From a virus: a stretch of 27,599 bases of DNA. Made by a program: the position numbers and the translations under genes. The stretch covers positions 1-27,599 of the IMG/VR virus record IMGVR_UViG_3300047494_000064, one strand, 5' to 3'. Of this stretch, positions 919-25,309 are shown one piece after another. A model generated the notes under the pieces. The model was given only the letters and a program-made list of their open reading frames with translations. It was not told the origin of the DNA and did not search any database. Positions within the stretch are counted from its first letter, which is position 1; each line of letters opens with the position of its first letter.

Positions 919-1067
919 TCGACAATTTCGCAAAGTGCCACCGCATCTTGGCGGACCGTGAGGTCGCGCGCACGCGCGAGCTGCGCCACGTGGTGTGCAT
1001 CGTCCTGGGGTTGGTGGCGCTGCTCTACGCGCTGCCGTTCGTGTCGCTGCTGGGGGGCGTCCGCTAA
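915..1067 (+). CDS. 50-residue single-pass membrane protein, unknown
   Basis: The short frame ATG 915 to TAA 1067 is tightly coupled on both sides: ATGA with the upstream stop and TAATG with the downstream start. Residues 1-24 are polar and charged; residues 26-47 (VVCIVLGLVALLYALPFVSL) form one clear transmembrane segment, followed by a four-residue tail. The charged N-terminus and short C-terminal end are compatible with an inner-membrane miniprotein. Small membrane proteins inside head operons can be morons or lysis-related, but nothing here points to one function. Existence is supported mainly by the perfect stop/start overlaps. Confidence 0.55.
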   Translation: MIDNFAKCHRILADREVARTRELRHVVCIVLGLVALLYALPFVSLLGGVR

Positions 1068-2134
1068 TGGCCTTCCCGCAAGTCACCTTCGTCGAGGCCA
1101 AGCACAAGCGCGACCAGGGCGGCCGCTTCGCGGGCATGGATCACGGCAACACGCCATCGTTCAGCCCCAAGCGCATCAGCGTGCCGCCGATGCGGTCGAT
1201 GACGCGCGGCGAAAGCTGGCAGCGCACCGGCATCAAAATCGCCGAATTGCCGACGAGCTATACCGGATCGCGCGACCGCGAAATGCCGGTCGGCAGCTTC
1301 ACGCACCATTCGTGGAAACCGCAGATCCCGGCGAAGGGCAATCCGGCCGACCACGAGCGCCTGGTCAAATCGCTGGTTTCGGTGATCCAAGCCAATAAGC
1401 CCGGCACCATCAGCCGCGCGCAGGAACAGGGCCTGATCCCGGAGGGCACGCCGCGCCGCACCGTGCTGCGCGCCTTCCACCACGCCTCGCTGCTCGGCCT
1501 GCACGACTACGGCGTGGGTAAATACGATTTCAAAATGGACGATGACCTGAAAGCGGAAATGAAGCCGCTGGAGGGTTTCATGCGCTACGCGCGCCGCCGG
1601 GTGAAAAGCTCGATGCTGGGCACCGAGCGCGGCGGCTGGCGTCCCTACCGCGCGGAGTTCGGCCAGAGCTTCCCCACGCCGAAAATCGACAAGCGCCCGG
1701 ACAGCCCGACCTTCGGCCAGGAGCGCAAGCGCGTGCCGCCGAACGATGTGCTGGTGAAGGTGGCCGCCGCCATGCCGCCGGCGATGCCGCGCCCGGGTGT
1801 CATCCCGGCCAATGCGGTGGGCCCGGGCGTGTCGCGCTTCGACCGCTACCGCGCCTATCTGGCGCGCAACGAAGCCATGGGCATGCGCAGCCACGTCATG
1901 CTGACGCCGGCGCAGAAGCTGCAGCGCCTCAAAGCCGGCATCGCCGAACGCCGCAAGGTGCAGACCGGCGCGCCCAAGTTGCAGCCGGGCATGCCGGGTT
2001 CGCTGGCGGGCGACGATATCCACCGCACGCGCAATCCCGCGCTGCCGCCGTCGCAGCCGATGGCGCCGGCCGCGCCGGGCATGAAGAAGATCGCCACCGC
2101 ACTCAGCGCCGCGGCGCGCGGGGCAACGAAATGA
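1067..2134 (+). CDS. Phage head-module protein, unknown (355 aa)
   Basis: The ATG at 1067 was chosen because it overlaps the preceding TAA (TAATG), although the frame is open further upstream. The protein starts with a short segment containing KHKRDQGGRFAG, a linker-like motif (R-x-x-x-G-R-F) that recurs in other proteins of this module. The rest is basic and rich in Pro, Arg and Met, with residues 85-200 the most globular-looking (helical, containing HASLLGLHDYGVGKYDF). The C-terminal third is Pro/Ala rich and probably disordered. No enzymatic motif was recognised. It overlaps the methyltransferase gene by ATGA, so the two are likely translated together. Confidence 0.65.
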   Translation: MAFPQVTFVEAKHKRDQGGRFAGMDHGNTPSFSPKRISVPPMRSMTRGESWQRTGIKIAELPTSYTGSRDREMPVGSFTHHSWKPQIPAKGNPADHERLVKSLVSVIQANKPGTISRAQEQGLIPEGTPRRTVLRAFHHASLLGLHDYGVGKYDFKMDDDLKAEMKPLEGFMRYARRRVKSSMLGTERGGWRPYRAEFGQSFPTPKIDKRPDSPTFGQERKRVPPNDVLVKVAAAMPPAMPRPGVIPANAVGPGVSRFDRYRAYLARNEAMGMRSHVMLTPAQKLQRLKAGIAERRKVQTGAPKLQPGMPGSLAGDDIHRTRNPALPPSQPMAPAAPGMKKIATALSAAARGATK

Positions 2135-2715: not shown

Positions 2716-2978
2716 TGGCCGACGAATGGATGAATCCGCCGGCGTTGCATCGCTGCGTCGTGGTGCCGAGCCTGGACTATGCGCGCGCCGAGCGCGTGCG
2801 GCTGCAGGCAGTCTATCCCGGCTACACCGTGGTGGCGGCGCTGGCCGCTGTGCCGGCGCTGCGCTTCCAGCGCATCGTCTCGATCTGGCGGCCGAAGAAG
2901 GCCCGCGATTTCTCGTGGCTGGACGGCTCGGTGCTGCCACGCCTGCGCCCGGGCGGTAAGCTCGAATGGGCGCAGTAA
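2715..2978 (+). CDS. Small phage protein, unknown (87 aa)
   Basis: The start is ATG 2715, which overlaps the methyltransferase stop (TAATG) and follows a strong Shine-Dalgarno AGGAGGG at 2700-2706; an in-frame GTG at 2706 lies inside that site and was rejected. The protein contains a hydrophobic Ala/Val stretch (YTVVAALAAVPALRF) and a C-terminal Trp-containing segment, suggesting a small folded domain. No family recognised. It overlaps the next gene by 13 bases. Confidence 0.65.
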   Translation: MADEWMNPPALHRCVVVPSLDYARAERVRLQAVYPGYTVVAALAAVPALRFQRIVSIWRPKKARDFSWLDGSVLPRLRPGGKLEWAQ

Positions 2979-5107
2979 CGCTCGCCAAGCGCACCGCCGG
3001 GCAGCCGCTCAGCGACGCCGAGCGCACGCAGCGCCAGAACGCCGCCAAATCGCGCTGGGCAGCCGCCAAGGCGGTCGCCGGTGCTGCCGGTGCCGTGCTG
3101 GGTGCATCCGTGGCCCAGGGCGCCATCCAGCAGCGCCACGCGCGCGTTCTGCAGGCGATCCTGCAAGCCAGCGACGAGGCGCTGCAACCGGAGGAAACGC
3201 GCCACGCTGCCAAGGACGCGCGCATCCTGCTGAACGGCCTGCGCGCCAAGGCCAAGGTCAATGGCAGCTGGCCGGTGCCGGCGATGCGTGCGGCGCTCTA
3301 CCAGCAGAAGCGCGACGCGACGAAGGAGCTGAAAGCAGCCCAGGCCGAGATCGACCCCTACGAGGAGCATCGCCGCCTGGTGATGGAGTCGCTGCGCGAC
3401 GAACCGGCGGCGGATTTCGAAACGTCGATCGGCATCCGCCAGGATATCCGCGAGCGCAACCGCAACGCCAAACCCGAAACGATCGCCGACGCGTCGCGCC
3501 CGGCGCGCGATATCGCCGCGGTGCAGGGGCGCATCGATGAGCTGGCCGATGCGCGCAAGACCACCACCGTGCCGCGCGACGGCCGCACCTACACCCTGAC
3601 GCCGCATACCCGCCGCATCAAAGTGGGCCGCGAGCTGCGCGAGAAATATCACAACCTGATGGGTGAGGCGCGCGCGTCCGCCGAGGAGGCGGGCGAAGAA
3701 TTCCACCCGCCGAAGCATTGGTTTCGCACGACCTACAAGACCGTCGAGGTCAAGCCAAAAAACAAGACCGCCGAAACCGCCGCGCACCGCGTCCGCGTCA
3801 AGGGCACGCCGGACACCAAAAAGATTCGCTCGATCCGCGCCGAGCTGACCGGCCGCATCGAATCCTTCACCAACCTGCACCGCGAGGCCGAGGAGCTGCG
3901 CCACGCGGCCAACCTCAAATCGATCGGCGCGGAGCTGGCGCCGAAACTCTCGGCCGCGCTGCACTGGCTGCCGTCGCGCCGCTTCCGACTCGCCGCCCTT
4001 GCCGGCGGTGCCGCCGCCGGTGCCGCCGCCGGTATCGCGGCAACTCAAGCGACGCAGCAGTTGGCCAAGGCCGCTGGGGACGAAAATTCCGCTGATGCGG
4101 ACACGGCTTTTACGCCGCTACCCGATGCGCCCGCGCAATTGAATGCCGCCGTCGAAGCCGGTGAGCCCAAGCTGGCCGAGGCGCTGGCCGGCGTGTTCCG
4201 CCAGTGGAAGGACGATGCGGCGGCGAACCTGCTCACCCCGCGCGAGTCCACGCTCTACAGCACGATGCTGACCGACATGGAGCGCGCGTCGCGCCCGCTG
4301 GACACGATCCTCAAAGCGGGCGGCAACGCGCCGGTCACCGCGACCGTGCCCACCGATACCGGCGGCTCGAAAATCATCACGCTGACGATGGGCGCGCGCG
4401 GGCCCGACGTGGAGCGCTACATCGCCGACTACCGCCAGAGCCGCATCGTGGAGCTGGCGCAGGAACAGAAAGAGGCGATCCGGGATCTGCTGATCCAGGC
4501 GGCGCAGGAAGGCTCCTCGCCGCAGGAAATGGCGCGCCGCATCCGCCAGACGATCGGCCTGACGGCGACGCAGGCGCAGTCAGTGCTGAATTACCGCCGC
4601 GAGCTGGAACAGAACAAGCCAGGGGCTCTGACCCGTGCGCTGCGCGACCAGCGGTATGACGGCCTGGTGCAGCGCAACCTCGATGAGAACGGCCAGCTCA
4701 CCACCGCGCAGATCGATCGCCTGACCGATGCCTACCACCGCAAATTCCTGGCCTACCGCGCGATGACGATCGCGCGCACCGAGGGCGTGGGCGCGGCGAA
4801 TAATGGCCACATCGCCACGGTGCGCGCGACGCTGGCCAAAAGCCCGCGCTTCACGGTGATCAAGACCTGGCACGCGACGATCGACGGCCGCGAGCGCCAC
4901 GATCATCACGAGCTGAACAACACCAGCGTCATCGGCCTGGACACGCCTTTCATCTGCGCCAGCGGCGACCAGATCAAATGGCCGCACGATCCGGCTGCCG
5001 CTGCGCGCCAGGTCATCAAATGCCGCTGCTACGTCAGCCTGCATGTCGTGCCGCGCGACGTGGCAGCCAAGCAGGGCGTCAACGCGGTGAAAACCCCTCT
5101 AGCCTAG
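2966..5107 (+). CDS. MuF-type minor head protein (SPP1 gp7/Mu gpF-like), 713 aa
   Basis: The C-terminal 120 residues carry the hallmarks of the Mu F / SPP1 gp7 head-morphogenesis family: IARTEGVGAANNGH (about 602-615), the Trp/Asp/His block KTWHATIDGRERHDHHELNN (633-652), and the terminal Cys pair KCRCY (685-689). Such proteins sit inside the capsid next to the portal and a few copies may enter the cell with DNA. The 590-residue N-terminal part is mostly helical and coiled-coil-like, with a Gly/Ala stretch at about 342-372 that could be membrane-interacting. At over 700 residues it is much longer than the MuF domain alone. It follows the portal region, as expected. Confidence 0.85.
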   Translation: MGAVTLAKRTAGQPLSDAERTQRQNAAKSRWAAAKAVAGAAGAVLGASVAQGAIQQRHARVLQAILQASDEALQPEETRHAAKDARILLNGLRAKAKVNGSWPVPAMRAALYQQKRDATKELKAAQAEIDPYEEHRRLVMESLRDEPAADFETSIGIRQDIRERNRNAKPETIADASRPARDIAAVQGRIDELADARKTTTVPRDGRTYTLTPHTRRIKVGRELREKYHNLMGEARASAEEAGEEFHPPKHWFRTTYKTVEVKPKNKTAETAAHRVRVKGTPDTKKIRSIRAELTGRIESFTNLHREAEELRHAANLKSIGAELAPKLSAALHWLPSRRFRLAALAGGAAAGAAAGIAATQATQQLAKAAGDENSADADTAFTPLPDAPAQLNAAVEAGEPKLAEALAGVFRQWKDDAAANLLTPRESTLYSTMLTDMERASRPLDTILKAGGNAPVTATVPTDTGGSKIITLTMGARGPDVERYIADYRQSRIVELAQEQKEAIRDLLIQAAQEGSSPQEMARRIRQTIGLTATQAQSVLNYRRELEQNKPGALTRALRDQRYDGLVQRNLDENGQLTTAQIDRLTDAYHRKFLAYRAMTIARTEGVGAANNGHIATVRATLAKSPRFTVIKTWHATIDGRERHDHHELNNTSVIGLDTPFICASGDQIKWPHDPAAAARQVIKCRCYVSLHVVPRDVAAKQGVNAVKTPLA

Positions 5108-5754: not shown

Positions 5755-6459
5755 ATGGATCTGGACCTGAGCGCGATCGAGGAATTGGCCAAGGCTGCCG
5801 GCAACGGCATGAAGGCGGAATACGTGGTGCACGACCTGGTGCACCGTATCCAGCCGCTGCTGAAAAACACCGGCACGTTCCCCGCCGCCATTAACGAGCT
5901 GCAGAAATGGGCGGAAGGCGAGGACGGCCTGCGCAAGGCTGTCGCGTCGCAGTTCCTGGAGCGCATGCGCGGCGCGCTGGGTGGCATGCACGCCAGCGCC
6001 GCTGTCGCGCATTGGGGCAAGAAGGTCGGCGCGGGCGAGGCCGGTGCGGGCAGCGCCGCGCTGAAATCCCGTTTCGCGAACCGCCATCATCCGGTGGCCA
6101 GCCCGTCGGCGCATCCCGCGGCGCAGGTGCAGCATGGCGAGGCCGCGCCGCGTCTCGATCCGAACGCCAAGCCCGCGCCGAAAGTGCAGCACGGCATGGT
6201 GCCGCATCCGCGCCTGAGCGCGCCGCCGCCGCCCGCCGCCGCTGCCGCCGACAAGGCGCATGCGGGCGGCGCGAAGCTGGCCGCAATGGGCGCGCACCAC
6301 GGCTTCAAGCTGGGCCTGGCCGCAGCTGCTGCCGCCGGCGCCGCCGGTGCCGCGCACGCGCACGCGCACAAGCCGGAACACGTTGCCAAGGCGGCTGACG
6401 AGCCCAAGGGCTTCGGCGCGCTGGCCAAGCTGTACGCCGGTCGTAAGGCGGCCGCGTAA
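5755..6459 (+). CDS. Ala/Pro/His-rich phage head-module protein, unknown (234 aa)
   Basis: ATG 5755 is preferred over an in-frame TTG at 5740 because GGGGGA lies just upstream at good spacing. The first 75 residues form a compact helical region (LSAIEELAKAAG, VVHDLVHRIQPLLKN). The rest is low complexity: Ala, Pro and His with a duplicated short phrase (QVQHGEA and KVQHGMV), a poly-Pro/Ala run, and an Ala/Gly hydrophobic stretch (LGLAAAAAAGAAGAA) near residues 185-200. It ends in TAATG overlap with the protease gene. Small proteins just before a prohead protease can be decoration or scaffold-related, but no family was recognised. Confidence 0.6.
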   Translation: MDLDLSAIEELAKAAGNGMKAEYVVHDLVHRIQPLLKNTGTFPAAINELQKWAEGEDGLRKAVASQFLERMRGALGGMHASAAVAHWGKKVGAGEAGAGSAALKSRFANRHHPVASPSAHPAAQVQHGEAAPRLDPNAKPAPKVQHGMVPHPRLSAPPPPAAAAADKAHAGGAKLAAMGAHHGFKLGLAAAAAAGAAGAAHAHAHKPEHVAKAADEPKGFGALAKLYAGRKAAA

Positions 6460-7118
6460 TGCACGCCATCTTCCCCGGCGGCGCGCAGGCGATGGGCTTC
6501 ATCGTCCCGCTGACCAAGATCGATGCGGCCAACCGCCTGGTCTACGGCCGCGCCGCGCAGGAAGTCCCTGATCGCGCCAACGAGATCATGGATTACGCCA
6601 CCGCCAAGCCGGAATTCGAGGCGTGGTCGAAATCCATGGAGCTGGCCAGCGGCGGATTGTCGAAAGGCAACGTCCGCGCCATGCACCAGAAGGACAAGGC
6701 CGTCGGCAAGCTGATCGACATCAAATTCAATGATGACGAGAAAGCCATCGATATCTGCGCCAAGATTGTCGATCCGGTCGAATTCGAGAAATGCCTCGAA
6801 GGCGTCTACACCGGCTTTTCCGTCGGCGGCGCCTATGCCGGTCCGAAATGGGCTGACCCGACCAACCCGGCGCTGAAACGCTACACGCCGCGCCCGCGCG
6901 AAATGTCGCTCGTCGATCTGCCATGCATCCCCACCGCCGGCTTTGCCGAGCTGGTGAAAATGGATGGCGGCATCGAGCAGCTGCGCCTGGTCGGCCGCAT
7001 TCGCACCTTCGCGGATCTGTGGGCCGAGGAGCAGGCGGCGCAAGCCGCACAGCCCGCGACATTCGCCAAAGCCTGGGCCGGCCGTCCGAAAACCTTCGCT
7101 GAAATGTGGGGCGGTTAA
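6459..7118 (+). CDS. XkdF-like prohead maturation serine protease
   Basis: A 219-residue protein that fits the phage XkdF/S78-type protease pattern: an early VYGRAAQEVPDRANEIMDY segment, the His-containing strand GNVRAMHQ (His76), a domain that reads KAIDICAKIVDPVEFEKC, then YTGFSVGG with the probable nucleophile Ser121, and the late REMSLVDLPCIPTA strand typical of prohead proteases. These enzymes have the herpesvirus-protease fold and trim scaffold and capsid N-termini during maturation. Catalytic roles are assigned by family analogy, not shown. It sits between the MuF protein and the scaffold/capsid pair as expected, and is stop/start coupled (TAATG) to both neighbours. Confidence 0.85.
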   Translation: MHAIFPGGAQAMGFIVPLTKIDAANRLVYGRAAQEVPDRANEIMDYATAKPEFEAWSKSMELASGGLSKGNVRAMHQKDKAVGKLIDIKFNDDEKAIDICAKIVDPVEFEKCLEGVYTGFSVGGAYAGPKWADPTNPALKRYTPRPREMSLVDLPCIPTAGFAELVKMDGGIEQLRLVGRIRTFADLWAEEQAAQAAQPATFAKAWAGRPKTFAEMWGG

Positions 7119-10100
7119 TGCCGCAGGTGATGTGGACGCGCGAGATCGTCGGTACGCTTTCCGACCGGGTTCGCACGCATAACGAAAAGACCGCCGATCC
7201 GGCCGCCAAGACCAAGCTCGTGGATCTGAAAAAGGTTTATGCGCGCGGCTATCACGGCCGCGACGCCACCGCCTGCGCGGTCAACGCGCTGGCCAAGGTC
7301 GATCGCCACCTGGGCGGCCTGGAAGCGCTGGCCAAGGGCTTCGATGCGTCCAAGCATCCGCGCGGCAACAAGGGCGAATTCACGTCCGGCGGCAAGAAAG
7401 GGGGCAGCGCCGGTATCGACGCGATCCCTTTGCCCAAGACGGCACGCCAGCACGCCAAGCTGCAGGAGACGAATGCTGCCTACCGCGCGCTGACCAGCGA
7501 CGTGGTGCCTGAGCGCCGCAACGAAGTCATCGGCGATTGGGCGCGTGAGCTGGGTTCAACGGCACTCGGCGCGGGCCTGGTGCTCAGCCTGGCCCATGGC
7601 GGCAGCAAGGGCATCGCCGCGCGCATGATCCGCGACGCAGGCCGCCGCGCCGGTGGGCTGGCCTTCGGCATCCCCACGGCCGCCGTCACCTACACCGCCA
7701 CCGGCGCCAAGCGCGCGGTGACCGGCAAGATCGCGCGCAGCTTCGGCCGCACGGTGCGCGACGGCGAATACACCGCCGCGAAGCACACCACGGAAGCCGC
7801 CACCAAGGCCGGGAAATTCGCGGGCGAGAAGGCGGGCTCGGCTGTCGTGGCCGGTGCGCGCCTGCTGGTGGACAGCGCCAACAAGGCGGGCGGCGACCTG
7901 CTGCACCGCAAGGCCGCCAAGGTGGCCACGCTGGGCGGTCTGTCGATCGGCGCGGGCCAGCTCATCAACAGCCAGATCGAGGGCGGCGCCGTGGATCCAG
8001 GACGCATTGGCGCGGGCTACGACGCGTTCAGCTACCGCACGATCGAGAAGATGGCCGGCGGCGCCGACGCGCTCGATGCGCTGGCGGGCGAGTATCTGGC
8101 CAAACTGGCCAGCGGCGACGGCCAGGCGCTGGCCAAGGCCGGGTTCTACAATGCAATCGGCATGCGCGTGCTGCCGGCGCTTGCCGCCGTGGGTGGCGCT
8201 GCCGTGGCTGGGGGCACTGCCGAGGCGGTGCATGCCGTCGCCGGCAACCGCACCTATAGCCGCGACGCGCATGGCCGCTTCACGAGCAAGGCCAACGCGA
8301 TCACCGCGGGCTCTGCCCTGGCCGGTGCGCTCGCCGCCGGCGCTGGCGCCTATCTGGCGCTGCGCCACCACAACGTCCGCCAGCTGGTCAGTCACGTCGA
8401 TGCGGTGGCCGATGTGATCGGCAAGCGGCTCGAGGAAGCCGCCCACCGCGACGGTGTCGGCCACGTCGCCGACCTGATCCAGCAGGGCAAGGAAAAGCTG
8501 ACCAAGCTGCATGCTGACCGCGCCATCGCGATCAACACGCGCCTGGGCAAAGACGAGGAATACCTCGCCGAGCGCAAGCGCCTGGACAGCTTCGCCGGAT
8601 CGTCCGACGTCCACCTGAAATCGCACATCCGCCGCGAAGTAAACGGCAAGCTCGCCGAAATCCTGTCGCAGCATAACGATTTCCGGGTGCCGGGCACCGA
8701 CCGAGATCCGGCGAAGTGGAAAACCATCGGCGAAATCCGCAGCGCCGCCACGCCGCTGAAAGCCGACAAGGCGGCCTACGACTCTGTGTTCAACGCCGTG
8801 GATAGTGCCACGCCGAAAGAATTCAGCCAGGCGATCGCCAACCTCACGCCGGGCCAGCAAGAGACGGCGCTGCATTGGCTTTCCACCCGCGACCGCGCAA
8901 TCGAGGCGGTGCCGGCCGATGTGAAAGCACATGTGGATAAGATCGCGGCCGCCGAGCAGAAGGTCGCCGCCGCGACCGATGCCGCCGAGGCCAAGCGCAC
9001 CGCGATGCTGGACGCCAAGGCTGTGGTCGACCGCACCACGGACGAGGGCGAGAAGGCTACCGCGCAGGCTGCCTTCGATGCCGCCAATGCCGAGCACGAC
9101 AAGGCCGGCAAAGCCGTCGAAGCCGCCAGCAAGGCGCTGGGCAAGCTGCGCGACGCGCCGTCCGGCGTGAAGTCGCCGGTGACCGGCAAGCTGATCCCGC
9201 CCGCCACCGAGGCCGAGCTGCAGCCGCATTACCGCCAGGCGCAGCAGACCGCGTATCGCCGCGCCGAGAAGATCGTCGATCGCGACATCGACAAGGCGCA
9301 CAAGAAACACGCCGCCGATGTGGCCGAGGCGCGCGCCCAGCAGATGGCGCAGATCACGCTGCAGGGCGACCGCATGCTGGCCGCGCGTGCGGCACTCGGC
9401 CATTCGCTGGGCGTGCTGCCGGACAAGGCTGCCGCCGCCGGCATCCAGGCCGCCGCGCTGCGTCGTTTCATCAGCCGCGCCAAGGGCGAGCTGACCACCG
9501 CGCGCGCCGACCAGGCCGCTGCGGAAAAGCGCGTCGCCGATTTGAAGCTGGCGCGCAAAGGCAAAGTGCCGAGCGGCATGACGGCGGAAGACACCGCCGC
9601 GATGGTGCAGAACGTGCACGCGGTGCACGACGCGCTGACGTCGGCCAAGCTCCGCGTCAGCGCCGCCGAGGCCAAATTGAGCGCGCGCCAGTTCCTGCTG
9701 CGCAAGCACAGCGCGCGATTCCTCAGCGCGGTGCATGAACAGCCTGTGGTGGAAGGCCGTGTCGGCAAACTGCCCACGTCGGTCTACCGCAAGCTGCTGC
9801 GCGATGTGACGCGCGCCACCGAGGATCTGCACAAGCCGGTCAACCGCTTCCTGCACAGCCCATCGGCGCAGGCGTTCAAGAATTTCGCCACGGCGACGGG
9901 CGATCATATCTGGGGCGGTGCGACGGCGGCCGCGCACGCGTTCCGCGATCTCTATCGCCACACGCTGATGCGCAAGACGGGCGAGGGGCCCGACGACTGG
10001 ACCATCGATCCGGCCAAGGTGCTGATCCGTGGCGGCCTGGGTGTCGTGGCCGGCGACGTCGCGCACGATCTGTATCATTACGGTAAAGATCAGGCGACGC

Positions 10101-12232
10101 ACGCGTTGGGCATGGGCGACGGCAAGCCGTCGAAATTCCCGCGCTCGATCAAGATCGAAAAGCATGTCGATCCCTACACGGGCGGCGGCTTCGTCGGTCT
10201 TTCGGTGGCCGATCCGGACCCGGAGAACAAGGGCGACCGCGTTCTGCTGTGGGGCGAGCACTACAAGGATCACACCGGCCGCGCCGAGCAGCTGCATCCG
10301 GGCGCGCGCGTCTCCGCGCTGCGCAACCGTTTCCAGAACGGCCAGGGCGGTGGCGGCGGCAGCACGTTCGTGCCGAGCGACCGCGATATCCCGAACCTGC
10401 CCGAGCACGAGAAGGGCCAGGTCAAGGCGTCGCTGGGCAAGCTGAAAGACCGCATGCATACCGTGCGCGTCGAGGACGGCCACGAATTCAAGCTGCGCCC
10501 GAACAGCGACAGCGGCGAGGATGCAATCGCCGGCAAAGTTGTCGATCACATCAAGCGCAGTTTCCTCAACAGCGGCTCGCCGTCCACCGGCAAGCTGTAC
10601 CACGGCGCGTTGGCCGCCACGCTCGGCAGCAACCAGGGCCGTATCCTCAAACAGCGCCAGGTCTACGAACTGCTGACCGGCTTCCCGGCGCGCGGTGGCG
10701 ACAAGCTGGCAGGCCACGGGATCTTCGAAACCGGCAAGGACAGCGATTTCGGCGAGACGGATAACAAGGCCGGCGTGCTCGATGCGCTGAAAGACGAAAT
10801 GAAGCGCGCGGTGGGTGCCCACGCGCCCGCCAACGACGTCGAAAAATCCAACATGATGCGCGCCGCCGCCGTGGTCGGCCGCCAGAAGGGTCTGTCCGAC
10901 GAGGATCTGAAAAGCGTCTACGAAATCATCCGCGGCAAGCCGGAAACCACGGCACCGGCGGCGCCGCGCATGGTGCAGGCCACCGTGCCCAGCGCGCCGA
11001 GCAGCGGCAAGATCACCGCCGCGTCCGAGGTTGAGGCCGACGCCGGCGGCTGGGACCCCAAGGTGCTGCGCGAGAAATCGCTGCCGCACGCCACCGCCGT
11101 GGCGAAAAGCCTGGGCATGAACACCGAGCGCAAGATCGCCGATACCGCGACGGCGCTCGAACACTTCGCGCGCCAGGTGCATGTCACGCACGGCCTGCCG
11201 ATGCACGAATCGCTCTACGCCGCTGCCAACGCGGTGAAGAACGCCACCGGCACGAGCACGGGCGAGAAAACCATCACGCGCGACGCGCTGGCCGATGTCG
11301 ATGCCGACCATTTTGCGTCGCATCTGAGTGCGGCGGCCGACGACGAGCTGGATCGTTACGAGAAAAAGAAGAACGTCCGAAAGGTCCACGCGCTCGATGA
11401 TCTCGAAGCGCTGGTCAAGGGCGCGTTCGGCGACGCCATCGATGCTGCATCCGGCGCCTGGGAAGGCGAGACGCGCGTTCCGAGCGGGCCGGGCGGCGGT
11501 GAATTCTCCGGTGGCGGCGGCAAGTCCTTTGCGACCCGGTTCGCCCGCAAGGCCGCGCAGCGCCTGCCGCGCGAGGGTGTCGATGAATCCGTCGATCGCG
11601 GTGCCAAGGGTGCGGTCACCGAGCGCAGCGCCACCGGCTCGAATTACACGCCGACGAAGGTGGCGGGCGACATCGGCGGTCTGGCGCTGGGCGAGGCCGG
11701 TGCCTACGCCATCGGCAAGCTGTTTCCCGAGGAAGCCGCCGGCGTGAGCCTGATCGGCGCGGTGCGCCAGGCCTTCAAGTCGGATGGCGCGGGCGCGGCG
11801 GCACAGGCGGCGCTGAAACACGTCGCCGCGGCGCCGGGCCGCGTTGCGCGCTCCGTGCCCAAGCTGGCCGCCACGAGTGCTGCGGGCCTGGCCGGCTACA
11901 CCGCCGGCAGCATGGCGGGCGAGGGGGCTGCGCGGGGCATCTACGCCGCCACAGGGCGCAAGGCGCCGGAAGCGGCACCGCCGCAGCTGAGCGTGGGCGA
12001 GGGCGTCGCTGAATCGCTGGGCAGCATCGGCGGCGCGATCCTGGGCGGCACGTTCGGCGCCGGCGTGGGCTCGATCGCCACCGGTGCTGCCGGCGGCTAC
12101 GTCGGCGGCATCGTCGGCCGCAACGTCTATGACGCGGGCGCGGCGCTCGGCCATCTGTTCACCGGCTACGGCGACAAGGGTGCGCGCACGGTGGCGCATC
12201 TGCGCCGCGCCACGCAGCCGGTGCGGTCGTGA
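7118..12232 (+). CDS. Giant head-module protein, 1704 aa, unknown; candidate ejected or polyvalent protein
   Basis: Starts at ATG 7118 overlapping the protease stop (TAATG). No enzymatic domain was recognised. Visible order: helical N-terminus with the only cysteine (Cys53); linker FDASKHPRGNKGEFTSGG near 75-92; Gly/Ala-rich hydrophobic stretches at about 144-200, 351-371 and 394-415, the last two separated by linker YSRDAHGRFTSK (380-391); long coiled-coil-like region centred on 612-680 and continuing to about 900; a beta-rich, Gly-rich centre (about 1000-1130); helical region to 1440; third linker VPSGPGGGEFSGGGG (about 1455-1469); and C-terminal Gly-zipper stretches (1571-1607 and 1634-1667, GGAILGGTFGAGVGSIATG). 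One cysteine in 1704 residues and membrane-active-looking zippers would suit a protein threaded out with DNA. Large polyvalent proteins of phages are another fit. Both are inferences. Confidence 0.85.
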   Translation: MPQVMWTREIVGTLSDRVRTHNEKTADPAAKTKLVDLKKVYARGYHGRDATACAVNALAKVDRHLGGLEALAKGFDASKHPRGNKGEFTSGGKKGGSAGIDAIPLPKTARQHAKLQETNAAYRALTSDVVPERRNEVIGDWARELGSTALGAGLVLSLAHGGSKGIAARMIRDAGRRAGGLAFGIPTAAVTYTATGAKRAVTGKIARSFGRTVRDGEYTAAKHTTEAATKAGKFAGEKAGSAVVAGARLLVDSANKAGGDLLHRKAAKVATLGGLSIGAGQLINSQIEGGAVDPGRIGAGYDAFSYRTIEKMAGGADALDALAGEYLAKLASGDGQALAKAGFYNAIGMRVLPALAAVGGAAVAGGTAEAVHAVAGNRTYSRDAHGRFTSKANAITAGSALAGALAAGAGAYLALRHHNVRQLVSHVDAVADVIGKRLEEAAHRDGVGHVADLIQQGKEKLTKLHADRAIAINTRLGKDEEYLAERKRLDSFAGSSDVHLKSHIRREVNGKLAEILSQHNDFRVPGTDRDPAKWKTIGEIRSAATPLKADKAAYDSVFNAVDSATPKEFSQAIANLTPGQQETALHWLSTRDRAIEAVPADVKAHVDKIAAAEQKVAAATDAAEAKRTAMLDAKAVVDRTTDEGEKATAQAAFDAANAEHDKAGKAVEAASKALGKLRDAPSGVKSPVTGKLIPPATEAELQPHYRQAQQTAYRRAEKIVDRDIDKAHKKHAADVAEARAQQMAQITLQGDRMLAARAALGHSLGVLPDKAAAAGIQAAALRRFISRAKGELTTARADQAAAEKRVADLKLARKGKVPSGMTAEDTAAMVQNVHAVHDALTSAKLRVSAAEAKLSARQFLLRKHSARFLSAVHEQPVVEGRVGKLPTSVYRKLLRDVTRATEDLHKPVNRFLHSPSAQAFKNFATATGDHIWGGATAAAHAFRDLYRHTLMRKTGEGPDDWTIDPAKVLIRGGLGVVAGDVAHDLYHYGKDQATHALGMGDGKPSKFPRSIKIEKHVDPYTGGGFVGLSVADPDPENKGDRVLLWGEHYKDHTGRAEQLHPGARVSALRNRFQNGQGGGGGSTFVPSDRDIPNLPEHEKGQVKASLGKLKDRMHTVRVEDGHEFKLRPNSDSGEDAIAGKVVDHIKRSFLNSGSPSTGKLYHGALAATLGSNQGRILKQRQVYELLTGFPARGGDKLAGHGIFETGKDSDFGETDNKAGVLDALKDEMKRAVGAHAPANDVEKSNMMRAAAVVGRQKGLSDEDLKSVYEIIRGKPETTAPAAPRMVQATVPSAPSSGKITAASEVEADAGGWDPKVLREKSLPHATAVAKSLGMNTERKIADTATALEHFARQVHVTHGLPMHESLYAAANAVKNATGTSTGEKTITRDALADVDADHFASHLSAAADDELDRYEKKKNVRKVHALDDLEALVKGAFGDAIDAASGAWEGETRVPSGPGGGEFSGGGGKSFATRFARKAAQRLPREGVDESVDRGAKGAVTERSATGSNYTPTKVAGDIGGLALGEAGAYAIGKLFPEEAAGVSLIGAVRQAFKSDGAGAAAQAALKHVAAAPGRVARSVPKLAATSAAGLAGYTAGSMAGEGAARGIYAATGRKAPEAAPPQLSVGEGVAESLGSIGGAILGGTFGAGVGSIATGAAGGYVGGIVGRNVYDAGAALGHLFTGYGDKGARTVAHLRRATQPVRS

Positions 12233-12489
12233 CGTTCAGCACAGGCGGCGGTGGACCGTCGGGCACGTCGATGCCCGGCACCACCTTCGCGCAGCCCACG
12301 ACGCCCACGACGGGGCTGCAGCGATACGACCTGGAAGGGTCGGTCAAGAACCTCAATCCGAATTCACCGCGCACGGCACTGCTTCGTTCGCGGTTGAAGC
12401 GCCTCGCTGCTTTGCGCGGGGACCAAAGCGCACGCCACTCGGCGCGCCAGACCAGCGGTCACCAAACCGCGCTTAAAAAGGATCATCCC
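12229..12489 (+). other. Capsid N-arm-like segment in frame upstream of the scaffold
   Basis: The frame opens at GTG 12229, overlapping the giant gene by GTGA, and runs without a stop into the scaffold frame. Bases 12280-12360 encode TTFAQPTTPTTGLQRYDLE followed by GSVKNLNP, which matches capsid residues 27-53 (ATFTQPTQPTIGLQTYNLE, then APAKNLYP) at 17 of 27 positions. After about 12378 codon choice loses its G/C bias and the DNA looks like spacer, including GGGGACCAAA (12418-12427). It is either the remnant of a duplicated capsid 5' end or a real N-terminal extension giving a 555-residue scaffold isoform. No ribosome site is visible at the GTG. Confidence 0.6.
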
Positions 12490-13896
12490 ATGTCGTTGCG
12501 AGGCACCATCGAGGCGATGGTCGGCACGCTCTCGAAAAGCGTCGCTGACATCAATAGCGCAGGCGGCGATGCCGCGCTGCTGACCAAAACCTTCACGGAA
12601 TTCACCGACGGCTTGTCCGGCCTGGTGGATGCCGACCTGGCCAAGCGCGCGCCCGTCGAGGAGCCGCTTTACAAAGGCCTGGGCACCGTGGGCCGCGTGG
12701 CCAACCTGCTGGGTTGCGTCGCCGAGCGCGTGGAAGCGATCCGCGCCGGTTACGACAACAAATGGCAGATGCCGAGCGAGAACGGCCCGAGCAACAAGAT
12801 CGAGCCGAGCGACGTGCCGAGCGCCGACGTGGCCGACCTGCTCACCAACGTCGTGCATATGGCCGAGCTGGCGCTGCGCGCCGCGGTGAACGAGCACGTC
12901 ACCCTGGCCGATGACGATGAAGTCGAGAAGGGCGCGCCCGCTGGCTTCGAGCTGATCCAGGTGCCGGACGGCGACGATCCCAACACCTACGCCGTGCTGA
13001 AAACCGCGCTGCCGGAACCGCTGGCGAAATACGCCACCGATCCGAACGTGCTGCAGGACGCGATCATCGAGAATGGCCTGGCCACGATGATGGCGGCCGG
13101 CGTGCCGGAAGAAGCCCTGAGCAAGCTGTTCGATGAGGGCGGCGAGGCGCTGGCCAAGAAATTCCCGCCCAAGAAAAACCCCGACGGCAGCGATGCCGGC
13201 GACGGTGCGACGGGTGGCGATGGCACGGGTTCGGACGCCGCCATGCAGGCGACGCCGCCAGGCACTGACGGCACGACCGCTGGCGCCGGTGGCGCGGGCG
13301 ATGCGACCGACGGCACCACCGATCCGAACAGCGACGGCACCGATCCGAACGGCGACGATCCGCTGTCGATCGCGCTGCGCATCTGGGCGGCGCTCGGCGT
13401 GCAGCTGAACCACATTTCGGATCTCGTGAATGGTGGCGACACCACGAGCGACGGCACCGGCCAGTCGGCCGATCCCGGCACCGATCTTGGCCAGGGCGGC
13501 GATGCCGTGACGAAATCGGCGACCGGTGGGCGCACGCTGGATTTGGCCAAGCGTCACGTCGCGGCGCCGGATGCGGCGACGACGAATCCCGCGCTGGAAG
13601 AATTGGCCAAGCGTTTCGATGCGCTGGCGGCCGATAGCGAGAAGAAGAGCGCGGTCATCGATGAGCTGGCCAAGGGCATCGAGCTGCTGCTCGCGCAGCC
13701 GCAGGCGCCGAAGGGTGCGGTCCGCGCGGTCCCAGCCCCGAACAAACAGAACGATGCCGGCACGCTGCAAAAGAGCGCCGATCAGATCATCGCCGAGGAG
13801 AAGGAGCGACTGGAGAAAATGGCTCCGGAAGATCGCGCGATGGAGCTGATTAAAATCTCGCAGCGTAATCCGGAGCCGAACCCCCGCAACCGTTAA
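12490..13896 (+). CDS. Probable capsid scaffold protein (468 aa)
   Basis: ATG 12490 was chosen because AAAAAGGA (12475-12482) lies seven bases upstream; the frame is open back to 12229. The gene lies directly before the capsid, the usual scaffold place. The protein is acidic and largely helical: an N-terminal helical domain (SLRGTIEAMVGTLSKSVADI), a middle with EALAKKFPPKK, a long Asp/Gly/Thr linker (about 235-340) with imperfect tandem repeats of GTDPN type, and a C-terminal helical, charged tail (QIIAEEKERLEKMAPEDRA), the type of end that contacts capsid in scaffold proteins. Function is inferred from place, charge and shape; no decisive motif was seen. It is followed by a strong terminator. 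Confidence 0.65.
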   Translation: MSLRGTIEAMVGTLSKSVADINSAGGDAALLTKTFTEFTDGLSGLVDADLAKRAPVEEPLYKGLGTVGRVANLLGCVAERVEAIRAGYDNKWQMPSENGPSNKIEPSDVPSADVADLLTNVVHMAELALRAAVNEHVTLADDDEVEKGAPAGFELIQVPDGDDPNTYAVLKTALPEPLAKYATDPNVLQDAIIENGLATMMAAGVPEEALSKLFDEGGEALAKKFPPKKNPDGSDAGDGATGGDGTGSDAAMQATPPGTDGTTAGAGGAGDATDGTTDPNSDGTDPNGDDPLSIALRIWAALGVQLNHISDLVNGGDTTSDGTGQSADPGTDLGQGGDAVTKSATGGRTLDLAKRHVAAPDAATTNPALEELAKRFDALAADSEKKSAVIDELAKGIELLLAQPQAPKGAVRAVPAPNKQNDAGTLQKSADQIIAEEKERLEKMAPEDRAMELIKISQRNPEPNPRNR

Positions 13897-13976: not shown

Positions 13977-14111
13977 TTGAGCGGCAGTTTCTCGAAAACT
14001 GCTGAGCACAGCAGGGGTGTTACCCCCTGATTGCTCGTCACCCCCTGCTTGAGCCGCAGGTCCTGGCCCGTAACCGCCGATGGGCCGCGGCAGTGCTCAA
14101 GGGTGACGATT
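13977..14111 (+). promoter_or_regulatory. Structured leader of the capsid gene with mutually exclusive helices
   Basis: The 5' leader holds a 7-bp hairpin GCAGTTT/AAACTGC (13984-14002) and three competing pairings. CAGGGG (14012-14017) can pair with CCCCTG (14024-14029). GCAGGGGTG (14011-14019) can pair with CACCCCCTGC (14039-14048) with one bulge. CGTCACCC (14036-14043) pairs perfectly with GGGTGACG (14101-14108), which covers the ribosome site AAGGGTG of the capsid gene; CTTGAGC (14049-14055) with GCTCAAG (14095-14101) can stack next to it. The second and third pairings exclude each other, so the leader could switch capsid translation on and off. The pairings are seen; the regulation is inferred. 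Confidence 0.5.
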
Positions 14112-15605
14112 ATGTCGACCGATGCAACTCTGGCGCTTTTGCGTCAGGCCCTGGCCAACGCGGGTAATCCCGCTGAGCTGGCCAAGAATGCGACCTTCAC
14201 GCAGCCCACTCAGCCTACGATTGGCCTGCAGACCTATAACCTCGAAGCGCCGGCCAAGAACCTGTATCCGGTTCTGTCGCCAATTCGCAACAAAATGCCT
14301 CGTGTGAAAGCCACGGGGGGCGTTCAGGCTAACTGGAAGGCGGTCACTGGCATCAACACAGCGTTCGTCGGTGTTGGCGTTGGCGAAGGCCAGCGTGGCG
14401 GCGTTCAGTCGGTCAGCACGGCGGAATTCTTCGCTGCGTTCCGCACGATCGGTATCGAATCGAGCGTGACCGAAGAAGCCGATCTGTCGGCGGAAGGCTA
14501 CGATGACCTGCGCGCTCGCGCGGCGAATTCGAACCTGCAAGCGCTGATGATCGAGGAAGAGCGCATCATCGTTGGTGGTTTCTCGTCGGTTGGTCTTGGC
14601 ACCACCGGCACGCCGACGCTGACCACGTCCGTCACCGGCGGCGCGATTGCCGCCACCACGGTCGTGTCGGGCAACTGCGTCGCGCTGACCATGGACGGCG
14701 TGCGCAACTCCAACACGATCCAGGCGCCGAATGTCGTGCCGGCCACCATCACGCGTAACAACGCTGATGGCACCACCACGACCTATAACGCGGGCGCTGC
14801 GCAGCGTTCGGTCGCGTCGAACATCACCACGGGTGCCGGCGGCGCCAACTCGGTGACCGCCAGCGTCCCTGCCAAACAGGGTGCCGCGGGCTATGCCTGG
14901 TTCGTCGGTCCGGTGGGCGCGGAAGCGTTTTACGGCATCACCAACTACAGCCAGGTTGTGATCACGTCGATCCCGACCAACGCCTCACTGTCCACCGCGC
15001 TGACCGCTGACTACTCGAAGAACGGCACCGTGTTCGATGGCCTGATCGCCCTCAACGCGAACCCGTCCAGCAATGCCTACTGGCATGCGATGACGCCCGG
15101 CACCGGCCTGACGGCCGATGGCTACGGCGGCATCGTGGAATTCGAGAACGTCCTGCGCTGGTATTACGACACTCTGCGCGGCACGCCTTCCAAGATTTGG
15201 GTGGCGTCGCAGGAAATGCAGACGATCCGCACGAAGTTCCTGGCCGGCAACGGCTCGCAGCCTTCGCGCTTCGTCTTCCAGATCCAGCAGGGCACCATCC
15301 AGGGCGGTGGCATTCCGAAGGGCTATCTGAACATGTTCGCTGGCGCTGCCGGCGGCAATTCGGAAATCCCGCTGGAAGTCCACCCCTATCTGCCGGCCGG
15401 CACGGTCATCTTCGAAATGGAGACGATCCCCTACCCGCAGAACAACATCAACAACGTCAAGCAAATCCTTTCGCGCAAGGATTATCACCAGCGCGAATGG
15501 CCGCAGATTACGCGGTCGTATCAATACGGCGTCTACTCGGATGAGGTGCTCCAGCACTACTTCCCGGTGTCGATCGCCGTCATCAGCAACATCGCCCCGG
15601 TCTAA
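14112..15605 (+). CDS. Major capsid protein (HK97 fold), 497 aa
   Basis: ATG 14112 follows the ribosome site AAGGGTG; the frame is open back to 14031 but the upstream part is structured leader. The N-terminal arm (ATFTQPTQPTIGLQTYNLE, NLYPVLSPIRNKMPRV) and the E-loop/P-domain order (FFAAFRTIGIESSVTEEADL, RWYYDTLRGTPSKIWVASQE, then YQYGVYSDEVLQHYFPVSIA) are those of HK97-fold capsids. Residues about 159-300 look like an inserted beta-rich, Thr/Gly/Ser-rich domain (GYAWFVGPVGAEAFYG), possibly an Ig- or fibronectin-like decoration. GGT, CGT, GTT and GCT codons are more frequent than in neighbours, as in a highly expressed gene. It is bracketed by terminators on both sides. Confidence 0.9.
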   Translation: MSTDATLALLRQALANAGNPAELAKNATFTQPTQPTIGLQTYNLEAPAKNLYPVLSPIRNKMPRVKATGGVQANWKAVTGINTAFVGVGVGEGQRGGVQSVSTAEFFAAFRTIGIESSVTEEADLSAEGYDDLRARAANSNLQALMIEEERIIVGGFSSVGLGTTGTPTLTTSVTGGAIAATTVVSGNCVALTMDGVRNSNTIQAPNVVPATITRNNADGTTTTYNAGAAQRSVASNITTGAGGANSVTASVPAKQGAAGYAWFVGPVGAEAFYGITNYSQVVITSIPTNASLSTALTADYSKNGTVFDGLIALNANPSSNAYWHAMTPGTGLTADGYGGIVEFENVLRWYYDTLRGTPSKIWVASQEMQTIRTKFLAGNGSQPSRFVFQIQQGTIQGGGIPKGYLNMFAGAAGGNSEIPLEVHPYLPAGTVIFEMETIPYPQNNINNVKQILSRKDYHQREWPQITRSYQYGVYSDEVLQHYFPVSIAVISNIAPV

Positions 15606-19109: not shown

Positions 19110-20363
19110 ATGACGACGCCAGTAATCACCAGCACGGCTTCCAATTACGCGCGCGGTGTCAACAAGACGATTTGCATCGTGCCGGAAACCTCGTACGGCA
19201 TCGCGCCGGCCGGCGGCGCCGGTGTGGGCCAGCTCCTGCGCCGCGTGACGGGCATGTTCAATCTGAACACGAACCTGATCGCCAGCCAGGAAATCACGCC
19301 GAGCCAGCAGACCGAAGATGCGCGGCAGGGTCCGCGCAGCGTGGTCGGCACGTTCTCCGGCCAGCTGTCGCCTGCCACCTACACGCTGTTCTGGGAAGCG
19401 CTGGCGCGCAACAACTTCGCCGCGGGTGTCACCACGGGTTCGCTAAGCGACGCGGTGCTGACGCTGAACAACCTGACCGGGGCGCTGGAGCTGATGAGCC
19501 CGTCGACCAATTGGCTCACGCTGGGCTTCCGCCTGGGCGATATCGTCCGCATGACGATCACCGGCACCGGCGTCGGCGACAGCCTGGTCAACCTGCGCGT
19601 GGTCTACTTCACCGGCAACAACACGATCGCCTTCGTCGCGGTGCAGGGTGTCACGCCGTTCGCGAGCACCACGACCGATACCGTCGCGGTGGCCGGCAAG
19701 AAACTGATCGTTCCGCCGTCGGGAGCGATCGTGCCGAGCTTCACGTTCGAGGAATATTACGGCGATATCGAGCAGAGCGATCTGTCGAGCGGCTGCCGCC
19801 TGACGCAGTGCAGCTTCAACTTCCCGGCGTCTGGCTTCGCCACGTTCCAGGCGAGCTTCACCGGCCGCAACCAGGTCACCGCGCAGGGCGCGGGCGTGCA
19901 GGTCTACACGGGCGCCGCAGCGGTTTCGACCACCACGGCGATGACGGCGGTAAGCGGCAACGTGATCTACAAGGGCCAGGAGGTCGCCTACATCAGCTCG
20001 GCCAACCTGCAGATCGCCAGCGCCGCGCAGGCCGATCCGATGGTGGGCAGCCAGTTCGCGCCGGACGTGTTCCTGGGCGAGCTGACGTCGCAGGGCAGCT
20101 TCTCGTGCCTGATGGCGCCGGACAGCATGACGTCGGACTTCTTGAACGAGGCTGAGGTCGATCTGTCCTTCTGCCTGACCACGAGCCCGTCGGACGCGGC
20201 GGATTTCTTCCAGATCTACCTGCCGCGCGTGAAGCTGGCGTCGAACACCAAGACGGACAGCGATCGCGCGATCAGCCGCAGCTTCAACTTCCGTGGCCTG
20301 CGCAACCGCACCAACACGCAGGCCGATCTGTCGACCTTCATCATTCAGGATAGCCTGGCCTAA
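19110..20363 (+). CDS. Major tail tube protein (417 aa)
   Basis: Starts at ATG 19110 after a short gap; GCAGGGGT (19094-19101) may be the ribosome site. The N-terminus has ICIVPETSYGIAP, a strand and loop typical of siphophage tail tubes (Phage_tail_tube_2 type), with later PSFTFEEYYGDIEQSDLSSG and RLTQCSFNFPASGFATFQAS, the paired-strand region of the tube fold. At 417 residues it is larger than the 150-250 common in tube proteins; the Thr/Ala/Val-rich parts (about 110-200 and 255-300) may be inserted beta domains. The stop codon lies in the loop of a perfect 12-bp hairpin (20348-20375). Confidence 0.8.
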   Translation: MTTPVITSTASNYARGVNKTICIVPETSYGIAPAGGAGVGQLLRRVTGMFNLNTNLIASQEITPSQQTEDARQGPRSVVGTFSGQLSPATYTLFWEALARNNFAAGVTTGSLSDAVLTLNNLTGALELMSPSTNWLTLGFRLGDIVRMTITGTGVGDSLVNLRVVYFTGNNTIAFVAVQGVTPFASTTTDTVAVAGKKLIVPPSGAIVPSFTFEEYYGDIEQSDLSSGCRLTQCSFNFPASGFATFQASFTGRNQVTAQGAGVQVYTGAAAVSTTTAMTAVSGNVIYKGQEVAYISSANLQIASAAQADPMVGSQFAPDVFLGELTSQGSFSCLMAPDSMTSDFLNEAEVDLSFCLTTSPSDAADFFQIYLPRVKLASNTKTDSDRAISRSFNFRGLRNRTNTQADLSTFIIQDSLA

Positions 20364-20766: not shown

Positions 20767-21183
20767 ATGTTTGATCTAGCGAAGCTCGATACCCTTAAGC
20801 GTTCCGAGCAGGGTGTGGATTTCATTATCCGCCATCCGAGCACCGGTGCACCGATGCTGAAAGACGACGGCAAGACGCCGCTGTCGATCCGGCTGCTCGG
20901 CAGCGCCTCAGAAAAGGCGCGCGCCACGCAGCGTGCGCTGAACCAGCGCAACGCGGCCGCGGCGTCGCGTAACGTGCAGCTGACCGACGAGGATCTGAAA
21001 GCGCAGCGCACCGAGTATATGTCGGCGATCACGCTGGGCTGGAATATCGACAAGCTGGACGGCCAGGATTTCCCCTTCACCCCTGAGAACACGCAGGAGC
21101 TCTGGAGCAGCGTGCGCTGGGAGTGGATGGTGGTGCAGGCCTATAATTTCGTGTTCCAGGCCGGAAATTTTTTGCCCCTCTGA
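20767..21183 (+). CDS. Tail assembly chaperone, gpG-like (138 aa)
   Basis: ATG 20767 follows AAGGA at 8-base spacing. It is a small, helical protein (KLDTLKRSEQGVDFIIRH, PSTGAPMLKDDGKTPLSIRL, EKARATQRALNQRNAA, TLGWNIDKLDGQDFPFTP) lying between the tail tube and tape measure genes, where siphophages keep the chaperone pair that coats the tape measure before tube polymerisation. Near its end is the slippery heptamer A AAT TTT (21165-21171), and the next open region lies in the -1 frame. The zero-frame product ends GNFLPL at TGA 21181-21183. Confidence 0.8.
   Translation: MFDLAKLDTLKRSEQGVDFIIRHPSTGAPMLKDDGKTPLSIRLLGSASEKARATQRALNQRNAAAASRNVQLTDEDLKAQRTEYMSAITLGWNIDKLDGQDFPFTPENTQELWSSVRWEWMVVQAYNFVFQAGNFLPL
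21165..21171 (+). promoter_or_regulatory. -1 ribosomal frameshift site (A AAT TTT)
   Basis: The zero-frame codons are GGA AAT TTT TTG, so A AAT TTT is an exact X XXY YYZ heptamer with four more slip-prone bases. Slipping here moves ribosomes into the -1 frame, which is open to 21533. It lies 12 bases before the zero-frame stop, as in lambda G/GT-type systems. A stimulating downstream structure was not identified. Confidence 0.8.
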
Positions 21184-25262: not shown

Positions 25263-25309
25263 CCCCGCTTGCCGCGGGGACCAGCGGACACGCGCCTGCG
25301 CGCATGTCC
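25263..25309 (+). promoter_or_regulatory. Hairpins over the tape measure start codon
   Basis: CCCCGC (25263-25268) pairs with GCGGGG (25274-25279), which ends in GGGGACCAGC. Then GGACA-c-GCGC (25286-25295) pairs with GCGC-a-TGTCC (25300-25309), enclosing the ATG at 25304. No Shine-Dalgarno is visible, so initiation may rely on ribosomes arriving from upstream. Structures are seen, function is inferred. Confidence 0.4.

Follow-up and report, generated by a model that had tools for sequence, protein, structure and literature searches.

A stretch of viral DNA of 27,599 nucleotides (IMG/VR record IMGVR_UViG_3300047494_000064, positions 1 to 27,599; a fragment, referred to below as the window) carries on its plus strand, at 7118-12232, the gene of a head-module protein of 1,704 amino acids, here called the giant. 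The giant is best explained as an internal head cargo or ejection protein of one siphophage clade, which would be loaded together with the scaffold, is divided into modules by a recurrent linker tag and would be ejected through the tail; we give this explanation a probability of about 0.5. The giant represents a new protein family; internal head cargo as such is a kind of protein already known. The genes of the family have a fixed place in a single clade, its members share their layout of modules and tags and are depleted in cysteine, and the same tag is found at joints to head cargo in other phages.

The reading frame of the giant is a real gene. It runs over 1,704 codons from the ATG at 7118 to the TGA at 12230-12232, with an in-frame GTG at 7106 as possible alternative start, and its codon-position G+C (0.71/0.51/0.85) follows the same pattern as that of the adjacent plus-strand genes. 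Upstream lies the head maturation protease (6459-7118, plus strand; phrog_9427, E 4.8e-10). Downstream follow a scaffold-like protein (12229-13896, plus strand), assigned by its position and its homologues in loci of the giant clade, and the major capsid protein (14103-15605, plus strand; phrog_13692, E 1.9e-112), which matches the annotated major capsid protein of named phages. In the window the giant gene shares nucleotides with both neighbours: its ATG with the stop codon of the protease gene (TAATG), and its TGA with the GTG start of the scaffold-like gene (GTGA). The same region is covered on the opposite strand by an open reading frame (ORF) of 1,547 amino acids (7556-12199), so that the giant might be a chance frame and the antisense ORF the real gene. 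However, the plus-strand protein is conserved across the homologues described below at 20-45% identity, and in most of these the antisense frame is broken by stops (0-14 stops, open runs of 311 to 1,666 codons). An artefact is thus already refuted and keeps a negligible probability; the antisense ORF was rejected as a gene and is explained as a by-product of high G+C.

With the giant as query, neither tblastn against 50,697 phage records nor a single-sequence scan of viral contigs gave a match. Because the phage records gave none, relatives of the capsid protein were fetched and their loci searched, which yielded homologues in L006, L008, L009, L012 and L013; alignment-based scans added L136, L137, L143, L144/L145 and L156. 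The family thus comprises ten full-length homologues (1,259-1,942 amino acids), all occupying the same slot, and fragments, among which are two from Acetobacteraceae genomes: L086, from an Acidocella metagenome-assembled genome, and G155, with its own protease upstream. A further member is the 1,778-residue frame of L213. Pairwise identities are mostly 20-30%, and 45% between the window giant and L006. The contig of L006, the closest relative (IMGVR_UViG_3300042090_001979), is also 27,599 bases long, which seems to be mere coincidence. The hosts, as far as the available genome matches point, are Acetobacteraceae and related alphaproteobacteria.

Wherever it can be read, the gene order is protease, giant, scaffold, capsid protein. 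The distance between the starts of the protease and capsid genes is 6.8-12.5 kb in the ten loci with both giant and protease and 0.7-4.2 kb in 100 relatives lacking the giant; in several of the latter, for instance Brevundimonas phage Polewnik, protease and scaffold form one gene. The original prediction had placed a large protein between maturation protease and scaffold, in a slot usually free of large genes, and ORF, neighbours, order and the emptiness of the slot elsewhere were all confirmed. In a capsid-protein tree of 125 sequences, the 11 giant-bearing rows present all fall within one clade of 14 rows (SH-aLRT 98). The contigs of the remaining three rows (L010, L007 and L014) break off 0.5-1.7 kb before the capsid gene and are therefore no evidence of loss. 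Most simply read, the gene was gained once, at the clade's base.

All 11 members examined contain two linkers of the type HPR-x3-G-x-F, and seven contain a third. The first lies near residue 75 (FDxxxHPRxxxGxF) and the second near residues 380-460 (GNPY[RH]DxxGRF), each in every member. The third, HPR...GGGEF or a degenerate version, lies ahead of the C-terminal module in the window, L006, L012, L136, L137, L144 and L013; in L013 this module is a separate gene of 215 amino acids that begins with the third tag. The second copy of L213, FFEAKHPRDKQGRF, connects the two linker types. The window giant carries copy 1 FDASKHPRGNKGEF at residues 75-88 (7340-7381), copy 2 TYSRDAHGRF at residues 379-388 (8252-8281) and a degenerate copy 3, ETRVPSGPGGGEF, at 11468-11506, in the same place as FxxxxHPR...GGGEF in L136 and L137. 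Around copy 2, D383, G386, F388 and S390 are invariant. The protease of L009 itself holds two modules of tag plus Gly zipper, and the giant of L009 carries a tag at its very C-terminus. Both the family and its recurrent linkers had escaped the original prediction.

Cysteine is nearly absent from the family, with 4 of 18,753 residues over 11 members compared to 0.67% in the other ORFs of the window, which is more than chance. The window giant itself contains 1 Cys, 195 Gly and 303 Ala, and has hydrophobic Gly/Ala stretches at residues 345-371, 394-415 and 1636-1666. Its 29 Gly-zipper triplets are not above expectation (23.5 +/- 4.7 after block shuffling; 46 of 300 shuffles reach 29), whereas in eight of ten homologues the count is reached by at most 3 of 300 shuffles. 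The low cysteine content and Gly zippers were both part of the original prediction; the former is borne out, and the latter holds for most homologues but not for the window copy alone.

AlphaFold2 (AF2) models of both halves were made from an alignment of 11 rows. A helical domain at residues 1-75 (7118-7342; this and all following features on the plus strand) is predicted with confidence at about residues 8-72 (block pLDDT, the predicted local distance difference test, of 77-92 over 1-70), and a hidden Markov model of the N-terminal part recovers all members and L213. In L288 (G153:C4; reverse strand, ~3.8-8 kb from the reversed end) this domain was also observed in an ORF of 291 amino acids, adjoining genes that by eye resemble F-type conjugation genes (TraF/TraH/TraG); the domain may therefore be common to phages and conjugative elements. 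Tag copy 1 lies in a low-confidence linker (75-102, pLDDT <50). It is followed by a helical Gly/Ala-rich module at about residues 134-300 (7517-8017; block pLDDT mostly 45-68), with low-confidence helices up to 290, and a disordered stretch at 300-420, in which copy 2 sits between the hydrophobic stretches 345-371 and 394-415. The coiled coils claimed at the outset are in agreement with a long α-helical rod at about residues 425-860 (8390-9697; block pLDDT mostly 75-93), for which VIA returned generic helical bundles only. Further on, a conserved strand-rich stretch (DPYTGGGFVGLSVADP...RVLLWGEHY, about residues 1010-1090, 10145-10387; modest pLDDT), with P1008, P1033, R1041 and G1046 invariant in 10 members, precedes two helical globular domains at about residues 1090-1275 and 1310-1420 (10385-11377; block pLDDT mostly 73-93), which had no fold match in the PDB. 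The C-terminal Gly-zipper module (residues 1510-1704, 11645-12229) contains six glycines, G1597, G1635, G1639, G1651, G1659 and G1663, that are at least 90% conserved in the family. Its best match in a PDB profile search, weak at E 5e-4, is the tape-measure protein 9ki1, with SlyB as a borderline second match.

Beyond this weak Gly-zipper match, no family in Pfam, PHROG or the solved structures explains the giant, and the original statement that no known domain is recognisable stands at the sequence level. When six members were scanned against Pfam at E <= 1, the matches were weak and unrelated and no enzymatic or polyvalent (LPD) domain appeared, and a PHROG scan gave one match of low significance to a family of no known function. 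Structural searches with both models were of no use either: the best values were E 3e-3 with a TM of ~0.1 in BFVD and E 0.65 in Foldseek against the PDB, and in VIA a Z of 10.9 for the N half, with only generic long-helix matches (F-BAR, SMC coils), and of 4.8 for the C half. The missing fold matches for the C half mean little, since its mean pLDDT is 53.6 and the C-terminus is poorly predicted.

A DNA pattern for HPRDxxG[KRQ]F, run over viral contigs, found the tag in more than 120 stretches, and 81 of 83 places read fall within ORFs of at least 150 amino acids. Of 70 distinct cases, 63 have an aromatic residue five positions before the His, against a background of 5.8%, and 63 have E, P or A at the third position before it; both positions lay outside the search pattern. 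In unrelated phages the tag, [FWY]xxxxHPRDxxG[KRQ]F, links cargo to a portal, MuF or DUF2213 domain. Segments on its N side matched portal families (13 matches), MuF (2) and DUF2213 (2), and those on its C side ADP-ribosyltransferase (5, and one ART match), Zeta toxin (5), NUDIX (3), topoisomerase and others. Among these same segments no portal match was found on the C side and no ADP-ribosyltransferase or Zeta match on the N side. The C-side segments, with 0.12% cysteine, are about nine-fold poorer in this residue than the remaining ORFs of these loci (1.06%); the N-side segments contain 0.58%. Within the capsid-protein relatives, portal fusions to CdiA_C and DUF6883/DUF4926 cassettes also use the tag. 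Tandem full and partial portal genes (L048 2-5636, L024 754-4434, L052 5191-6603) end in the tag plus varied CdiA_C, CdiA_C_tRNase-like or DUF6883 domains, one with DUF4926, and resemble cassettes for polymorphic toxins carried on portals.

Among the named viruses that carry the tag are Streptomyces phage Gilgamesh, Haloarcula virus HHTV-1, Gordonia phage Forza, Pseudomonas phage Orimi01 and Xanthomonas phage PhiXhv-5, in all of which it lies in the region of terminase, portal and head genes. Gilgamesh gp48 (L278 14908-28782), encoded near a portal-MuF fusion gene, is a cysteine-free protein of 4,624 amino acids with the tag at residue 37. No paper describing the literal tag was found in the open-access literature, subscription papers being outside the search. 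We tentatively propose, at a likelihood somewhat below even, that [FWY][DNE][EP]xxHPRDxxG[KRQ]F is a general code, formerly overlooked, that tailed bacterial and archaeal viruses share. It would stand where a capsid-resident anchor, be it portal, MuF, protease or a small N-domain, meets its cargo; the cargo would be taken up by the head, freed or processed inside it and then ejected, and the giant would be a version with three tags. The original label of best candidate for an undescribed system suits the family, and the broader undescribed element is the tag.

Cargo of this kind would be handled as follows. The giant would be made in step with protease and scaffold through the overlapping start and stop codons, and its N-terminal helical domain would probably dock the chain in the procapsid. 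The HPR-x3-G-x-F linkers would separate this docking part from the cargo modules; they may be sites at which the co-encoded protease cuts, or docking peptides themselves. The cysteine-poor, mostly helical chain would leave through the siphophage tail, at least partly unfolded, after which the C-terminal Gly-zipper module may insert into the membrane of the host. This last step is suggested by the sequence, AF2 confidence for the Gly-zipper modules being low. The original prediction was that the giant resembles packaged and ejected proteins, and that it could form a conduit across the envelope or act against host defences. Its coupling to protease and scaffold, its nearly absent cysteine and its sharing of the tag with portal- and MuF-cargo fusions support this likeness; packaging, processing or cleavage, ejection and membrane insertion are what we infer from it. 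The observation was thus confirmed and its interpretation partly supported.

Several points weigh against this explanation. One of four searched protease families (S78, XkdF-like, ClpP and DUF2213, which we take to be a probable prohead protease) occurs in 34 of 49 tagged records, a count made in tagged records only, and this fits processing at the tag but is not specific. The families differ among tagged phages, 15 of the 49 records show none of them, and the tag has no recognisable cleavage consensus; the idea that it is the cleavage site of one protease type is unsupported. A cut at the terminal tag of the L009 giant would be expected to free almost nothing, which argues for docking, at least in L009. 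The low AF2 confidence of the Gly-zipper modules also counts against it. Finally, siphophages usually pierce the envelope with their tape-measure protein, so that a second conduit is not obviously needed.

The position of the gene directly between protease and scaffold, its coupling to the scaffold start and the helix-rich rod would also suit an assembly-only core or auxiliary scaffold, which would fill the procapsid and contribute to head-size control until the protease degrades or removes it ahead of DNA packaging; both roles have been proposed for DarA of P1 (PMC12810830). Such a protein would not need family-wide loss of cysteine or conserved hydrophobic Gly zippers, however, and the linkers of the giant match those of effector cargo, which makes a purely assembling function rather improbable. 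Those linkers, carrying enzymes in other phages, bring into view a protein that, in the manner of P1 Dar or polyvalent proteins, is delivered to the cytoplasm for counter-defence or host take-over, with the globular parts at about residues 1010-1420 acting on a host target. The two confident helical domains with no known fold would be at home there, but rod and Gly zipper make up most of the length and no enzymatic or LPD domain turned up at E <= 1 in the members scanned, so we regard this role as unlikely. The match of the C-terminal zipper to a tape-measure protein, along with weak, low-confidence structural matches to tape measures, could point to a second tape-measure or pilot protein, associated with the neck or tail and present in the head operon by chance. 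This is quite unlikely, given that the gene sits in the head module and that the adaptor, tail tube and chaperone genes and a probable tape-measure ORF at 25304 are separate. Internal head cargo that is ejected remains the explanation we prefer.

The other genes of the window include the C-terminus of a portal gene, a methyltransferase, MuF (2966-5107, Pfam/PHROG match; a gene separate from the giant), a head-tail adaptor, a tail tube (19110-20363, PHROG match) and tail assembly chaperones (one at 20767-21183, PHROG match). The adaptor, tail tube and chaperone genes indicate that the phage is long-tailed, most likely with a non-contractile tail. Between portal and methyltransferase lies a second tagged protein (1067-2134, plus strand), cysteine-free, with FVEAKHKRDQGGRF near its N-terminus, no PHROG match and no assigned function. 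The N-terminus of the scaffold-like protein, TFAQPTTPTTGLQRYDLE (12229-12340), resembles that of the capsid protein, TFTQPTQPTIGLQTYNLE (14140-14260); the two find each other by tblastn, and the same likeness occurs in L086, L136, L137, L143 and L156, so that the scaffold-like protein possibly mimics the capsid N-arm. A second short motif, seen by eye, LSxAExxxRxxAAxxRW, precedes Gly-zipper hairpins in head-module proteins (window 2966-3100; L006 1379-2512; L013 594-3272).

Proteins that enter the cell with phage DNA are known for few model phages only, and the giant family, with one gene in one clade at a fixed place, provides a clear test case. The tag may be of more general use: if it flags head cargo, ejected proteins, including unknown giants, could be predicted from sequence alone, and if it is a processing or docking site it could serve to load chosen proteins into laboratory phages.

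Among the closest known systems, the E-proteins and ejectosomes of the P22/T7 type are large internal head proteins, as the giant is proposed to be; they are recruited together with the scaffold and exit through the portal, probably partly unfolded; P22 E-proteins enter procapsids together with the scaffold, and very large ejected proteins have been argued to pass partly unfolded (PMC8402733). Theirs are podophages, however, with a short tail and no tape measure, whereas the giant belongs to a phage with adaptor, tail tube and tail chaperone genes, and it is a single chain instead of three proteins. Sequence comparison gave no match to podophage ejection proteins and no PDB profile match, with one weak Foldseek row to a cyanophage pre-ejectosome chain (E 3.5). 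DarA, Hdf and DdrB of P1 are head-packaged accessory proteins as well, and the ~75-90 N-terminal residues that the prohead protease removes from DarA (PMC12810830) are similar in length to the 75-residue domain before the first tag. They show no sequence match to the giant, and Dar functions concern anti-restriction and head size. Polyvalent proteins, predicted to be packaged and injected, are also very large and encoded beside virion genes (Iyer et al. 2017, PMC5512222). They carry two or more effector or LPD domains, and as profile searches found none in the giant family, the original comparison with them stands by analogy only. MuF polymorphic toxins combine head protein and cargo in a similar way (Jamet et al. 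2017, PMC5576092), and in other phages sampled, toxin-like domains are attached to MuF or portal through this very tag. Such toxins have an N-terminal MuF domain and a C-terminal toxin domain with an immunity gene, but the giant itself contains neither MuF nor a toxin domain. Tape-measure genes follow the tail tube and chaperones, unlike the giant gene, which precedes the capsid gene; a putative Gly-zipper membrane region, suggested by the profile match to 9ki1, is common to both. Gilgamesh gp48 and HHTV-1 gp13 have no sequence relation to the giant that was found outside the tag. They resemble it in being giant or large proteins without any cysteine, encoded beside portal or MuF genes and bearing the tag near the N-terminus. 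The window giant falls in a class of tagged head-cargo proteins, defined in the present analysis by aromatic-x4-HPR[DG]-xx-G-[KRE]-F followed by cysteine-depleted sequence, as its copy 1 and its single cysteine in 1,704 residues show.

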